Below, piece by piece: positions 50,658-56,890 of a stretch of 64,000 nt of DNA (positions within the stretch are counted from its first letter, which is position 1; every line of letters begins with the position of its first letter). A model generated the notes under the pieces. That model was not told the origin of the DNA, searched no databases, and saw nothing but the letters and a program-made list of their open reading frames with translations. This stretch comes from Sphingopyxis soli. Its GTDB lineage: Bacteria; Pseudomonadota; Alphaproteobacteria; Sphingomonadales; Sphingomonadaceae. A program made the position numbers and the translations under genes. The stretch covers positions 1 through 64,000 of the forward strand of contig NZ_JAFMTR010000079.1 in NCBI RefSeq assembly GCF_018682675.1, given 5' to 3'.

Positions 50658-50665
50658 ACAACGCC
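50658..50665. repeat. target-site duplication, left copy
   Basis: ACAACGCC immediately before the left inverted repeat; the same 8 bases follow the right inverted repeat at 53473-53480. Eight base pairs is the IS1595-family duplication length. Confidence 0.92.
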
Positions 50666-50692
50666 GGCGTTATTATACTTGACATACCCAAT
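50666..50692 (+). repeat. left terminal inverted repeat of IS1595 element
   Basis: 27 bp starting GGCGTTATTATACTTGAC; two mismatches to the reverse complement of 53446-53472. Confidence 0.92.
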
Positions 50693-50727
50693 GATGATAG
50701 CTAGAGGAGATTCATAAGGAGTTTCCA

Positions 50728-51663
50728 ATGGTTTCCGCGCTTTCTGCCCCTCATTTTCACAACGAAGAAGCGGCGTTCGCTTACGTCGAAGCTCGCGTAT
50801 GGCCGGAAGGCCCCATTTGCCCGCATTGCGGCGGCGTGGAGCGCATCGGCAAGATGGGCGGCAAGTCCACCCGCCTTGGCCTCTACAAGTGCTACCAGTG
50901 CCGCAAGCCCTTCACCGTTCGGATCGGGACCATCTTCGAAAGCAGCCACGTCGCCCTGCATATCTGGTTGCAGGCAATGTATCTGATCGCGGGCAGCAAG
51001 AAGGGCATTTCGAGCAACCAGCTTCACCGCACTCTTGGCGTCACCCTGAAAACCGCTTGGTTCATGTCGCACCGTATCCGCGAAGCCATGAAGTCCGACA
51101 CCCTTGGCGATTTTGGCGCTGGCGGCGGCGCGGTTGAAATGGACGAAACCTTCATCGGTCAAGACCCCGATGCACCGCCGAGCCGCATGGCCACCCGCAT
51201 GAAGATGCAGGTCGTAGCGCTGATCGACCGCACCACCGGACGCTCAACCAGCATGGTCTATACCGGCAACCTCAACGTCGCGGGTGTGACTGAAATCCTG
51301 CGCGCGAACGTGTCGCCGGAGGCCCATTTAATGACCGACGAAGCCCGCTTCTACCGCATCCCCGGCAAGGAATTTGCCGCTCACAGCCGCGTCATTCATG
51401 CCCGCGGCGAGTATGTCAGCAAGTTCGATCCCAACGCCCACACCAACACCATCGAAGGCTTTTTCAGCATCTTCAAGCGCGGGATGAAGGGCGTTTACCA
51501 GCACTGCCAGAAGAAGCATCTTCACCGCTATCTGGCCGAGTTTGACTTTCGCTACAGCAACCGTCAGGCTTTGGGCTGCAACGATGCTGACCGCGCTGAC
51601 CGCTTGTTGGCAGGTGTCGTTGGCAAGCGGCTTACCTATGAAACGACTGGTCGAGGGGCCTAA
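50728..51663 (+). CDS. tnp: IS1595-family transposase
   Basis: 311 aa. N-terminal zinc ribbon CPHCGGVERIG...YKCYQCRKPF, then a helical HTH (SSNQLHRTLGVTLKTAWFMS) and the DDE-type core with catalytic Asp in AVEMDETFIGQDP, a second Asp in HLMTDEARFYRI, and the Asn/Glu block NTIEGFFSIFKRGMKG. The YEVSKFDPNAHTN-type region fits the DDN(K) catalytic set of IS1595. Full length and apparently intact. Confidence 0.95.
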   Translation: MVSALSAPHFHNEEAAFAYVEARVWPEGPICPHCGGVERIGKMGGKSTRLGLYKCYQCRKPFTVRIGTIFESSHVALHIWLQAMYLIAGSKKGISSNQLHRTLGVTLKTAWFMSHRIREAMKSDTLGDFGAGGGAVEMDETFIGQDPDAPPSRMATRMKMQVVALIDRTTGRSTSMVYTGNLNVAGVTEILRANVSPEAHLMTDEARFYRIPGKEFAAHSRVIHARGEYVSKFDPNAHTNTIEGFFSIFKRGMKGVYQHCQKKHLHRYLAEFDFRYSNRQALGCNDADRADRLLAGVVGKRLTYETTGRGA

Positions 51664-51668
51664 GCGCC

Positions 51669-51827
51669 ATGCCAAAGAAGAAAAATCAGGAGACGCAAGC
51701 CGAGCAAAGCGAGCGGTTCAAAAAGGCCGTCCGCGAGTTAATCGACGCTGGCGAACTAAGCCCCACAGAGGCAGATAAAGCGTTAGACGCCCTCGTTCGC
51801 AAGAACGCCGCGGCGTCTAATTCTTGA
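51669..51827 (+). CDS. 52-aa accessory protein of IS1595 transposon
   Basis: Five bases after the transposase stop. Lys/Glu-rich N-terminus (MPKKKNQETQAEQSERFKK) then a helix-turn-helix-like helix pair (AVRELIDAGELSPTEADKAL). Its stop overlaps by 11 bp the end of the convergent passenger gene. Short ORFs of this type after IS1595 transposases are familiar to me, but I know no function. Confidence 0.68.
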   Translation: MPKKKNQETQAEQSERFKKAVRELIDAGELSPTEADKALDALVRKNAAASNS

Positions 51828-53394
51828 CTCCCGAATTGCAAAAAGGATGAGCGGGAGCAAGGTTAGCACCATCGTTGTTTCCGCCTTCTCTCCGTCTCTG
51901 CAAATGGTCAAATGTGATCGAATTGCTATGCACGGCGGCCTGACAAATCGGGCAGCGAACGGGGTTTGCCATTGCCTCTCGGATGAATGCCGCCGACTTG
52001 GACTCATGGGAAGCCCCCTTTTTACCCGGCAAAACCACTGCCCCCGGAGAGGGAATTTCCGCTTGTCTTAGGTGGACAAAATCCCCTTGCTTGACGAGTT
52101 CTGCCACGATTTCTTCGCCAGTATTCCCGGCTTCGAAGCCCTCAAACAGCGCCCAATAGAGGTCGGCGATCCTTTGCAGGCTTCGCGATCCGCTGCCCAA
52201 TCGAGTGATCGTGAGAGACACGAAAACCTTGTGGGCAAACAGGAAATCTTCAAAATCGCGACGTATTGAGGTGAAGGCCTTCTTCTTTTTATGATCGTGG
52301 AGTTTCTTCGCGAATTGTAGCGAAGCCAAAAAAGCGTTGGGAATGAAATTCCCAGATCGAGCATAAAAATAAACAAGAGGATGCAGACCGAGCGACCCAG
52401 ATGAGTTCGTGCTTATGGTCTCAATTCGCTCGTTAACCTTGGATAGCATCGCAAGAGTCTGCACCCCCTCAAGGTCAGGCTCCAAAGCCTCTATTTTCGC
52501 CGCGGGCGTTGCTGGGATGTTGATGCCGTTGCATAGGCTGACAAGATCAAACACAAATGGGAGCGAGTTATATCCCTGCCCCGCAATCGGCTGATCAGCG
52601 GAAGTGACCGGATTTTTGTGAGGGGGCTTGTAAAGGTCGGCGTGAATTTTCTCGCCCAGCTCCTCAATCTTCTTCCGCGTTTCATCGTCGAACGAAGCCC
52701 AATATTTGTGCCCCTGGCCCCCTCGAACGATGCAACGAGAGGCTATCGCATTGGGAGAGGTGCGACTCTGAAGAATGCGGCGCTCAACAGGGTCAATGGG
52801 TTGGGCAGCTTGATTGATTTTGAAGAATGATGCCTCTGCCGCCTCTGGTGTCGCCGCAGTCACCCACTGAATGATTAGGGACTCTTGACCAATTGACGCC
52901 AATCTCCGGGCCTTGCGGGGATCGGGAACGGTTTTGCCGATAAGGCCGTTAAATTCTGCGTAAGTCCCAATTTCCTTTTTCATCAGATCGCGAGTCTTTT
53001 TTGCAACTGCCCGCTGTTCATCTGTAAGGCCAGCGCCGAATAGGCGATTTGAATCTTCGCCGTCTCCGTAGTCATCGCGAACCCACGCGATCAACGCGCT
53101 TAGCCGGTGAGCGCCGTCGATCACAAAGACTTCATCGCCGCGCTGCCAAAGAATGACAGCCGGGATGAGATCTCGGTCGAGAAAAGCCTTAACTAGATCA
53201 ACGACCTTATTTGGCGTCCAGTATCCTGTTTCGCGCTGAAAGTCTGGCTTACGCAGGTTCGCTTGGAAAAAGCCCTGCCTGCCTAAATCTGAAAGGCTGA
53301 TGGTAGTTCTTGGACTACCACCCGCTTGCGCGATTTCACCAACGAAATCCTCCCTTGGAATCAAAGCATCTAGATTCACAGTCTTGGCAGGCAT
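51817..53394 (-). CDS. DUF262-HNH restriction-like nuclease carried by the transposon
   Basis: 525 aa from ATG 53394 (GGGGAG about 6 nt upstream; GTG 53427 possible). N-terminal DUF262/ParB-type nucleotide-handling domain with the FVIDGAHRLSALIAW motif near residue 90 in the place of DGQQR, preceded by NKVVDLVKAFLDRDLIPAVI. C-terminal HNH endonuclease: CPICQAAVHSNSITFDHLQR, then GGNNDGANLAPAHPFCNSG. This DUF262 plus HNH architecture is shared with GmrSD-like type IV restriction enzymes, which attack modified phage DNA. The gene is alone, so it is a candidate single-gene defence system. Confidence 0.82.
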   Translation of the reverse strand: MPAKTVNLDALIPREDFVGEIAQAGGSPRTTISLSDLGRQGFFQANLRKPDFQRETGYWTPNKVVDLVKAFLDRDLIPAVILWQRGDEVFVIDGAHRLSALIAWVRDDYGDGEDSNRLFGAGLTDEQRAVAKKTRDLMKKEIGTYAEFNGLIGKTVPDPRKARRLASIGQESLIIQWVTAATPEAAEASFFKINQAAQPIDPVERRILQSRTSPNAIASRCIVRGGQGHKYWASFDDETRKKIEELGEKIHADLYKPPHKNPVTSADQPIAGQGYNSLPFVFDLVSLCNGINIPATPAAKIEALEPDLEGVQTLAMLSKVNERIETISTNSSGSLGLHPLVYFYARSGNFIPNAFLASLQFAKKLHDHKKKKAFTSIRRDFEDFLFAHKVFVSLTITRLGSGSRSLQRIADLYWALFEGFEAGNTGEEIVAELVKQGDFVHLRQAEIPSPGAVVLPGKKGASHESKSAAFIREAMANPVRCPICQAAVHSNSITFDHLQRRREGGNNDGANLAPAHPFCNSGVKN

Positions 53395-53445
53395 TTTCCG
53401 CTCCCCAGCGAACTTAAGGCGCTTCACTTAGCACCCCCGATCCGG

Positions 53446-53472
53446 ATTGGGTATGGCAAATATAATAACGCC
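53446..53472 (-). repeat. right terminal inverted repeat of IS1595 element
   Basis: 27 bp, complement of the left repeat with two mismatches; followed directly by the ACAACGCC target duplication. Confidence 0.92.
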
Positions 53473-53480
53473 ACAACGCC
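53473..53480. repeat. target-site duplication, right copy
   Basis: ACAACGCC, identical to 50658-50665. Confidence 0.92.
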
Positions 53481-53600: not shown

Positions 53601-54524
53601 GTGACCGAAGGGGCGGAAAAGAAAGTCCTGAGCTTTCAGGACATGATCCTGACGCTGCACGCCTATTGGAGCGCGCGCGGCTGCGCGATCCTGCAGCCCT
53701 ATGACATGCGCGTGGGGGCGGGCACCTTCCATCCCGCGACGACCTTGCGCAGCCTCGGGCCCGAGCCGTGGAACGTCGCCTATGTCCAGCCGAGCCGCCG
53801 CCCGACCGATGGCCGCTATGGCGAAAACCCCAACCGGCTGCAGCATTATTATCAATATCAGGTGATCCTGAAGCCGTCGCCCGCCGACCTGCAGGAACAA
53901 TATCTGGGCAGCCTCGCCGCGATCGGCATCGATCCGCTGCTCCACGACATCCGGTTCGTCGAGGACGACTGGGAATCGCCGACATTGGGCGCGTGGGGGC
54001 TGGGCTGGGAAGTCTGGTGCGACGGGATGGAGGTTACCCAGTTCACTTATTTCCAGCAGATGGGCGGCTTCGACTGCAAGCCCGTCGCGGGCGAGCTGAC
54101 TTACGGGCTCGAACGCCTCGCCATGTACATCCAGAATGTCGACAATGTGTACGACCTCAAATTCTCTGACGCGGTCGGCGATGTCTCGGCGGTCAGCTAT
54201 GGCGACGTGTTCCTCGAGAATGAACGCCAGTTTTCGAAATGGAACTTCGAGGTTGCGGACACCGATACGCTGTTCGCGGGTTTCAAGGCCGCCGAGGACG
54301 AGTGCAAGCGCGCGATCGAGGCGGGCGTGCCGCTCGCGGCCTACGATCAGGCGATCGAAGCGAGCCATCTGTTCAACCTCTTGCAGGCGCGCGGCGTGAT
54401 CAGCGTGCAGGAACGCGCCAATTACATGGCCCGCGTCCGCGACCTCGCAAAAGGCAGCTGCAAGGCGTGGATCGACAGCCAGTCCGAACGCTGGACCCAA
54501 AACTATCCGGGGTGGACGCTGTGA
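53601..54524 (+). CDS. glyQ: glycyl-tRNA synthetase alpha subunit
   Basis: 307 aa, GTG start after AAAGG. Class II core: [60 protein letters not shown], and [20 protein letters not shown]. Forms the alpha2beta2 synthetase with GlyS. The frame is coupled to glyS by a GTGA overlap. The IS1595 transposon ends 120 bp upstream, leaving a short promoter region. Confidence 0.96.
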
Positions 54525-56890
54525 CCGACTTTCTTCTCGAACTGCGCAGCGAGGAAATCCCGGCGCGGATGCAGGCCGGCGCGCGCGCCGAGCTTGAAAA
54601 ACTGTTCCGCGCGCAATTGAGCTCCGCGGGTCTCGAAACAGGCGAACTCACCATTTGGTCGACGCCGCGCCGTCTGGCGCTGATCGCGCGCGACTTGCCC
54701 GAGGCGACCGCTGCGGTGAGCGAAGAACTCAAGGGGCCGCGCAGCAGCGCGCCGCCGCAGGCGCTCGAAGGCTTCCTCCGCAAGACCGGCCTTCGCCAAG
54801 ACCAGCTCGAGGACCGCGACGGCGTGTATTTCGCGGTGATCGACAAGCCTGGCCGTGCGACCATCGAGGTGCTGGCCGAGGCGGTCCCCGCGATCGTCCG
54901 CGGCTTTGCGTGGCCCAAGTCGATGCGCTGGGGCAAGGAAAGCGCGAGCAGCGAAAGCCTGCGCTGGGTGCGCCCGCTGTCGGGCATCGTCGCGATCTTC
55001 GGCGAGGAATTGGTGCCGTGCGAAATCGGCGGCATCGCCAGCGGCTTCGCGACGCGCGGCCATCGCTTTCACTGCCCGGGCGAGATCACCATCGGCTCGG
55101 CGGCGGACTATGCCGAGAAGCTGCGCGCCTGCCACGTCATCGTCGATCATGAGGAGCGGCAGGCGATCATCCGCGACGGCGCCGCCAAGGCCGCGGCCGA
55201 CGCCGGGCTGGTGCTGGTCGCGGACGAGGGGCTGGTGATCGAGAATGCAGGCCTCACCGAATGGCCGGTGCCCTTGCTCGGCCGCTTCGACGAAGCGTTT
55301 CTGGAAGTGCCGCCCGAGGTCATCCAGCTCACCGCGCGCGTGAACCAGAAATATTTCGTCGTGAACGGCGCGGACGGGAAGCTCGCCAACGGCTTCGTCT
55401 GCACCGCGAACATCGACGCGAAGGACGGCGGCGCGGAGATCGTCGCGGGCAACCGCAAGGTGCTGGCGGCGCGACTTTCGGATGCGCGCTTCTTCTGGGA
55501 ACAGGACCGCAAGACGAAGCTGGAAGATCACGCGAAAAAGCTCAATCGCATCACCTTCCACGAAAAGCTGGGGACGGTTGCGGACAAGGTCGAGCGCGTT
55601 GCCAAGCTGGCGCGCTGGTTGGTGGAGGAAGGTATCGTCACTGATTCACCCCTCCCCTTCAGGGGAGGGGCCGGGGGTGGGGCCTTTCGTCCTGACGCTG
55701 CACGGACCGATAGGCCCCACCCCAACCCCTCCCCTGAAGGGGAGGGGCTTTCGCTCGCCGATCAGGCCGAACTCGCCGCACGCCTCGCCAAGGCCGACCT
55801 CGTCACCGAGATGGTCGGCGAATTTCCCGAATTGCAGGGTCTGATGGGCGGCTATTACGCCCGCGCCGAAGGCCTGCCCGACGCGGTCGCCGACGCGATC
55901 CGCGATCATTACAAGCCGGTCGGGCAGGGCGACGACGTCCCGACCGCGCCGGCGACGGTGGCTGTGGCGTTGGCGGATAAGCTGGATACGCTGGCCGCTT
56001 TTTTCGCCATCAACGAAAAGCCGACCGGTTCGCGTGACCCATTCGCACTTCGTCGTGCGGCCTTGGGAATCATTTCGATCATTCAGGCGAACGAACTCCG
56101 TCTGTCCGTTTCTATGCCGCTGGCTGCGGCGCTAGCAACGCTCGTCGGCAAATCGAGCGCGTCCGCGGATCGTTTCTCGTTCGAGGTTGGCGTTCAACAG
56201 CTTGAGGCCGCGGGTGTCCAATTTTCGGAGGAGACAGTTGATCGGCTCAGAGATGTGGCGTTGCAGAATGCGCTCGATCGAGCCTCGCCGATCTATGATC
56301 AGATAATCCAACCTTCGATTGTGAGTATCATTTTGTTCTTGGCCGACCGCCTCAAGGTCCAGCAGCGCGAAGCCGGTGTCCGTCACGACCTGATCGACGC
56401 GGTGTTCGCGCTCGGCGGCGAGGATGACCTTGTCCGCCTGCTCGCCCGCGTAAAGGCGTTGCAGGCGTTCATGGCGACCGAGGACGGCGCCAACCTGCTT
56501 GCGGGTTACAAGCGCGCGGCGAATATCCTGAAACAGGCGGGACAAGATGTGTCCTCCAATTCTCGTCATGCTGAACTTGTTTCAGCATCCACGGCCGGAC
56601 CATGGACCCTGAAACAAGTTCAGGGTGACGAGCGTTTGGGTGCGGCCGACGCTGCTCTGTTCGAGGCTCTGGATAGCGCCGAACCCGCCGCCTCCGCCGC
56701 GGTCGCCGAAGAACGCTTCACCGACGCGATGGCGGCACTGGCGTCGCTCCGCGCGCCGATCGACGCTTTCTTCGACGGCGTGATGGTCAACGATCCCGAC
56801 GAAGCAGTGCGCGCCTATCGCCTCGGTCTGTTGTCGCGCTTCACCGGCGCGGTGCATGGCGTCGCCGATTTCTCGAAGATCGAGGGCTGA
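54521..56890 (+). CDS. glyS: glycyl-tRNA synthetase beta subunit with two palindromic-repeat insertions
   Basis: 789 aa from GTG 54521, longer than a typical beta subunit (about 690). Conserved parts: [55 protein letters not shown] and [20 protein letters not shown], and the C-terminal anticodon-binding region with [12 protein letters not shown] and [19 protein letters not shown]. Two repeats are translated in frame: 55647-55750 ([13 protein letters not shown]...[10 protein letters not shown]) and 56562-56632 ([20 protein letters not shown]). A stretch at about 56090-56345 looks AT-richer and adds residues absent from typical GlyS. Confidence 0.93.
55647..55750. repeat. palindromic repeat inserted in frame in glyS
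   Basis: CACCCCTCCCCTTCAGGGGA... on the left is mirrored by the right-hand AACCCCTCCCCTGAAGGGGAGG stretch, forming a 100-bp foldback. It encodes about 35 extra residues between two conserved GlyS segments without breaking the frame. Confidence 0.85.
56562..56632. repeat. palindromic repeat inserted in frame in glyS (second)
   Basis: CTCGTCATGCTGAACTTGTT...AACAAGTTCAGGGTGACGAG, 71 bp, near-perfect inverted repeat. It shares its CTCGTCA/TGACGAG ends with the intergenic repeat at 41679. Encodes HAELVSAS...LKQVQGDE. Confidence 0.88.

Follow-up and report, generated by a model that had tools for sequence, protein, structure and literature searches.

We analysed a 64,000-nucleotide stretch of DNA (the window) from Sphingopyxis soli, a soil/water bacterium, in which an insertion sequence (IS) of the IS1595 family carries a gene for a protein with a DUF262 domain and an HNH nuclease domain (DUF262-HNH). 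The element is an intact IS1595-family transposon of 2,807 base pairs (bp) at 50666-53472, exactly the coordinates that the original prediction had given. It has the following parts:

50658..50665, no strand: target-site duplication, left copy, ACAACGCC, 8/8 match to 53473-53480, present as one copy in the empty site of the congener G076
50666..50692, plus strand: 27-bp inverted repeat of the left end, identical to the family tip (0 mismatches)
50728..51663, plus strand: IS1595-family transposase, 311 amino acids (aa); Pfam DDE_Tnp_IS1595 4.1e-27 and Zn_ribbon_IS1595 1.7e-10, NCBIfam transpos_IS1595 3e-51
51669..51827, plus strand: small open reading frame (ORF) of 52 aa, the clade's second conserved gene, with a profile match in 72/96 surveyed elements
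51817..53394, minus strand: DUF262-HNH cargo gene, 525 aa, convergent, sharing 11 bp at its 3' end with the small ORF
53446..53472, minus strand: 27-bp inverted repeat of the right end, differing from the family tip by 2 mismatches
53473..53480, no strand: target-site duplication, right copy, ACAACGCC, 8/8 match to the left copy

The two terminal repeats are complementary at 25 of 27 positions (93%), and a search of the window for the element tip, allowing up to 3 mismatches, returned two sites only, both of them the element ends (100 shuffles gave 0). The transposase scored well above the family cut-offs (DDE_Tnp_IS1595, 95.5 vs 27 bits; zinc ribbon, 41.1 vs 25.4; NCBIfam, 174.3 vs 75). In the available text of PMC5704250, the IS1595 family is described by an IS1595-type DDE transposase, 25-bp inverted ends and an 8-bp duplication, and passenger-carrying forms (tIS) are known, among them MTnSag1/tISSag10 and tISCpe8, the one named passenger being lincomycin resistance (tISCpe8). 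By its DDE_Tnp_IS1595 domain and zinc ribbon, and by its inverted ends and 8-bp duplication, the window element is a member of this family; with the DUF262-HNH gene lying between the mapped ends, as predicted, it is a passenger-carrying IS. The insertion is real, because G076 matches the joined window flanks over 593 bp (97%) without a gap and with a single ACAACGCC copy. Flank matches occurred in 79 genomes; all 6 congener loci that were aligned were empty, the five besides G076 at 86-90% identity. The window's genome contained one match to the transposase. Both element tips (50666-50692, 53446-53472) hold outward-pointing TATAAT-like boxes that may affect neighbouring genes; a promoter and terminator scan gave no more than shuffles did.

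We then examined the cargo protein, whose start (ATG at 53394) was picked from an alignment of 17 homologues. Three features could be placed on it:

52795..53256, minus strand: DUF262 (ParB/Srx-like NTPase) domain, residues 47-200; Pfam GmrSD_N, with BrxU, Noc/ParB and SspE as second-look folds
53104..53118, minus strand: DGAHR, predicted nucleotide-pocket motif (DGQQR in GmrSD), DG[AGS]HR in 17/17 homologues
51829..51954, minus strand: HNH nuclease domain (residues 481-522), which contains Cys pairs; Pfam HNH (PF01844) 3.7e-6

The GmrSD_N (DUF262) match had an E-value of 2.4e-8 (34.8 bits vs a cut-off of 33.2), and the HNH residues C481, C484, H497, N511, H516 and C519 were invariant in 17/17 homologues. 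The PADLOC-listed defence systems (2023) held no full-length match to the protein, the partial ones being NsnA (24.8 bits, residues 49-114) and PD-T4-2_A (11.6 bits). A PDB sequence search with the cargo protein alone (P0002) found no match; with the cargo profile the best E was 0.0058, and the top four matches were HNH parts. Foldseek gave no match under E 0.001 for two models. The fold matches to BrxU, SspE and DndI came from a second look only, BrxU being the best there.

The original prediction had likened this protein to GmrSD-type enzymes, a resemblance that holds for the DUF262 domain and not for GmrSD-type identity. Like GmrSD, Eco94GmrSD and BrxU, the cargo joins an N-terminal ParB/Srx-like DUF262 domain to a C-terminal nuclease in one chain, but it has DG[AGS]HR in place of DGQQR and a PF01844 zinc HNH in place of DUF1524, for which Pfam gave no match up to E 1. 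Because DGQQR and DUF1524 are the two defining features of GmrSD (PMC4619093, available text), we rejected membership of the cargo in that family. Its C-terminal family also differs from those of the phosphorothioate-sensing effectors SspE and DndI (the SspE C-terminus is given as DUF1524 in the portion of PMC10952713 at hand), and no SspABCD or phosphorothioation genes were found within the window element, to which that search was limited.

To place the element among its relatives, we surveyed related transposases by a genome contig scan (80 of 205 loci kept), at the order level (396 genomes, 59 with a match at 1e-70) and at the class level (385 genomes, 22 with a match at 1e-85), and further loci came from viral contigs recruited via the cargo protein. 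Ends were accepted at ≥19/25 pairing with a duplication of ≥7/8, or at ≥22 pairing with 6/8. Paired ends were found at 102 of 172 transposase sites, yielding 96 distinct elements with the window's included; six identical elements were left out, 35 short-flank loci were swapped for longer ones, and L126 and L168, which passed looser rules, failed the final end criteria. Chance ends were ruled out, as shuffled loci gave 0/49 false element ends. The duplication was a perfect 8/8 in 86/96 elements, the duplication itself being part of the acceptance rule, and these 86 perfect duplications were AT-rich (73% vs 41% in the flanks). The clade's hosts are Alphaproteobacteria, with some records labelled beta- or gammaproteobacterial. 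One further element from the window's genus, L086, was identical to L002 (Sphingopyxis). Two loci, L136 and L204, have two clade IS1595 transposases near each other; in L136 there are two elements with ends, each flanked by AAGAGGCG.

Every mapped element carries a passenger. Lengths ran from 1,831 to 5,055 bp (median 2,475; n = 96 elements), at least 851 bp lay beyond the transposase in all of them, and no bare IS was present, the shortest element being 1,831 bp. Among 69 loci with a transposase and unaccepted ends, none of the 48 with an inverted partner (≥18/25, duplication not required; 46 after two duplicate loci were dropped) was a bare copy, the partner lying 515-3,427 bp beyond the point where the transposase is projected to end; another 20 stood at contig edges or had no clear partner, so that bareness could not be judged there. 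At L143 (G376:C10), possibly a deletion derivative, the transposase is truncated and a candidate right end (17/25) follows 144 bp after its projected end.

What the passenger is varies from element to element. The nearest element, L002, has a transposase 84% identical to the window's, and the two elements align over element positions 1-1100 and 2756-2807 with nothing in between. The distal stretch of homology forms one further feature:

53421..53472, no strand: block at the right end, homologous to L002 again after the exchanged cargo (85% over 52 bp; the last 49 bp 94% identical to L056)

In L002 the slot is filled by a gene of a DUF3800 cluster (its own Pfam match, 16.7 of 21 bits, is below the cut-off, which other members pass). 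The cargo is exchanged as a block between elements, and the proposed search for other IS1595 copies with different passengers in the same slot proved positive among the 96 elements. For the three commonest minus-strand cargo families, by mechanical ORF starts, the right end lies 13-69 bp from the start of 29/35 ORFs; where the small ORF is present, 25/33 stop ≤3 bp away from it or run into it by as much as 87 bp. The position of DUF262-HNH itself, whose variation the original prediction had named as a refutation, is constant: in the window, L017, L018, L056, L200, L213 and L218 the gene is convergent and abuts the right end in the same orientation (7/7 within 50 bp). Additional genes precede it in L213, and L215 is an eighth case without a clear duplication. 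On the transposase tree (one row <240 aa dropped) these seven elements need 7 changes, 6 of them forced, and 500/500 shuffles were as low; therefore, cargo and transposase are uncoupled for DUF262-HNH.

The small ORF between transposase and passenger was absent from the original prediction. By profile search it lies directly 3' of the transposase in 40 elements and >300 bp after it in 32; 23 of the 24/96 elements without it have a transposase <57% identical to the window's. About 60 bp over the transposase 3' end and the small-ORF start (approximately 51600-51675) are near-identical in the window, L002 and L056, elements otherwise at ~82% DNA identity around this region, and may reflect recent gene conversion or a constrained site.

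A putative nuclease inside an element could be thought to aid transposition, by target cutting or target choice. We regard this as extremely improbable: DUF262-HNH is in 7/96 elements only, the rest have similar ends and duplications with other cargo, and the gene is also found without an IS1595 transposase in the surrounding DNA. DUF262-HNH as transposition machinery was rejected on the first of these counts.

We next considered the contents of the slot as a whole. At least 52/96 elements carry DUF3800, HEPN-like, PIN, DUF262-HNH, RelA/SpoT, SocA, HNH or listed defence genes. A DUF3800-type gene is present in at least 17 elements, and 12 (L023, L026, L046, L050, L051, L053, L055, L063, L076, L089, L150, L161) carry an unannotated family of ~270 aa that has an RNxxxH-like motif and probably adopts a HEPN fold. 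PD-Lambda-5 A and B are carried by L192 (G374), whose ends are mapped. That the passengers are host genes caught at random, with no functional theme, would fit the 44/96 elements whose cargo is unassigned, and the theme was judged without a formal comparison set. We nevertheless consider such hitch-hiking improbable, as a small set of families turns up repeatedly on scattered transposase branches (in 14, 12, 9 and 7 elements) and no metabolic or antibiotic-resistance family is among the 23 that Pfam matched to 132 cargo proteins (E 0.001). Jointly, the four cargo families need 17 changes on the transposase tree against a shuffled mean of 22.4 (0/200 as low) and are somewhat clustered, most strongly PIN, with 4 changes over its 9 rows.

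DUF262-HNH genes also travel without IS1595. On a tree of 27 rows, 8 of them in IS1595, the IS1595 label changes at least 5 times, as forced by supported branches, and is mildly clustered, because 23/500 shuffles were as low (dropped rows: L177, with an in-frame stop; L229, L230 and L231, short; duplicates L083, L232, L220 and L221). An IS1595 transposase was near DUF262-HNH in 3/20 viral loci. The closest relative of the window cargo (67%) lies on viral contig L212, in a P2-like prophage, where a D12 methylase, a phage portal gene and a gpP-like terminase adjoin it on one side and an integrase lies on the other. In phage KL3 the gene lies between an EcoRII system and the portal gene, with one small ORF before the portal; in P2 the portal-gene flank is the old/tin defence site. 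In Pf8 it is annotated as a putative repressor and is near a putative toxin-antitoxin pair, and on a Burkholderia glumae conjugative plasmid it stands beside DncV-like, ThiF and Mov34 genes, neighbours that appear to be of the CBASS (cyclic-oligonucleotide-based antiphage signalling system) type. A DUF262 (PF03235) and an HNH (PF01844) are also named beside a defence module with portal, Ogr and methylase in a KKP-linked prophage (PMC11341870, available text); these are known from names only, and may be separate proteins or another family.

The genes next to DUF262-HNH in a phage and on a plasmid render a defence role likely. Together with the preceding results they lead us to read the locus as an intact IS1595 transposon of a passenger-carrying clade, with an exchangeable slot and a DUF262-HNH cargo acting as a type IV-like one-gene defence (probability about 0.72). 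Weighing against this are the elements with unassigned cargo, the G025 copy, which adjoins a lepA-like gene (named by eye) and has no defence-type neighbours, and the Pantoea and Enterobacter plasmid copies, which have none either. Alternatively, the cargo could serve the element rather than phage defence of the cell: a selfish or addictive nuclease would attack competing mobile elements or plasmids, or punish loss. PIN, SocA/Panacea and other toxin-antitoxin-like genes occupy the same slot, and 53/59 genomes with a match in the order-level scan have a single transposase copy. We judge this unlikely, given that 6/7 DUF262-HNH elements have no convincing partner ORF beyond the conserved small one, L213 being the element with other ORFs, and that the gene moves without IS1595, by restriction-modification genes in a phage and by CBASS-like genes on a plasmid.

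The clade core consists of the inverted ends, the transposase and, in most elements, the small second gene. The cargo, in many cases no more than one or two genes, sits between transposase or small gene and right end and is swapped as a block. The element, its insertion, the slot and its exchange, the domain content and the conserved residues are observed; for the cargo we infer nucleotide gating, a DNA target and an antiphage effect: it probably works in a GmrSD-like manner, as a nucleotide-gated nuclease against incoming DNA. The DUF262 (ParB/Srx) domain would bind and hydrolyse nucleotide at the DG[AGS]HR pocket and, on incoming DNA, detect some feature that may be a modified base; detection would license the C-terminal zinc HNH to nick or cut that DNA. 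The outcome would be a type IV-like single-gene defence against phages or other mobile DNA.

A swappable slot with toxin-, nuclease- and defence-like genes suggests a simple route for the spread of single-gene immunity. More tentatively, and with some doubt, the IS1595 clade might be a dedicated carrier of one- or two-gene immunity, with an obligatory passenger, an exchangeable cassette, phages and plasmids as loading pool, and the small gene as a transposition or cargo-exchange factor. IS1595 elements with passengers and Tn7 with defence cargo are already known from the available texts. The window clade shares with tIS the DDE transposase, the inverted ends, the 8-bp duplication and the internal passenger, and differs in having a passenger in every mapped element, a conserved small second gene and a slot that often holds nuclease-, toxin- or defence-like genes. 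Tn7-like transposons, which carry defence genes and toxin-antitoxin modules from host to host (PMC8649781, available text), are likewise transposons spreading defence-type cargo, whereas most elements of the IS1595 clade have a length of 2-3 kb, a single transposase and few cargo genes, and no Tn7-type accessory proteins were seen in them. Among the literature matches listed, in which subscription literature was thinly covered, there was no report of defence genes as IS1595 cargo, nor of the clade-wide slot, the small second gene or the nuclease/toxin theme, and novelty is unproven. Discussions of mobile immunity usually centre on large islands, prophages and Tn7-like elements; elements that mostly measure 2-3 kb and combine one transposase with a replaceable slot would be a minimal vehicle. 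Since the slot can be read across genomes, it would offer candidate one-gene defences missed by island guilt-by-association, namely the HEPN-like family (12 elements), DUF262-HNH (7) and the DUF3800-type genes (at least 17).

Lastly, the claim that the element is independent of a defence island was borne out as far as its seven scanned neighbours, on which alone it was judged: five are housekeeping genes (glyQ, glyS, ppdK, ribosomal L25 and pth), one of the remaining two is a small helix-turn-helix regulator (family matches below cut-offs), the other had no match, and no defence genes were found among these seven. The window's glyS (54521-56887) matched its family model in three stretches; by eye, its frame holds two inserts resembling mobile intragenic repeats.
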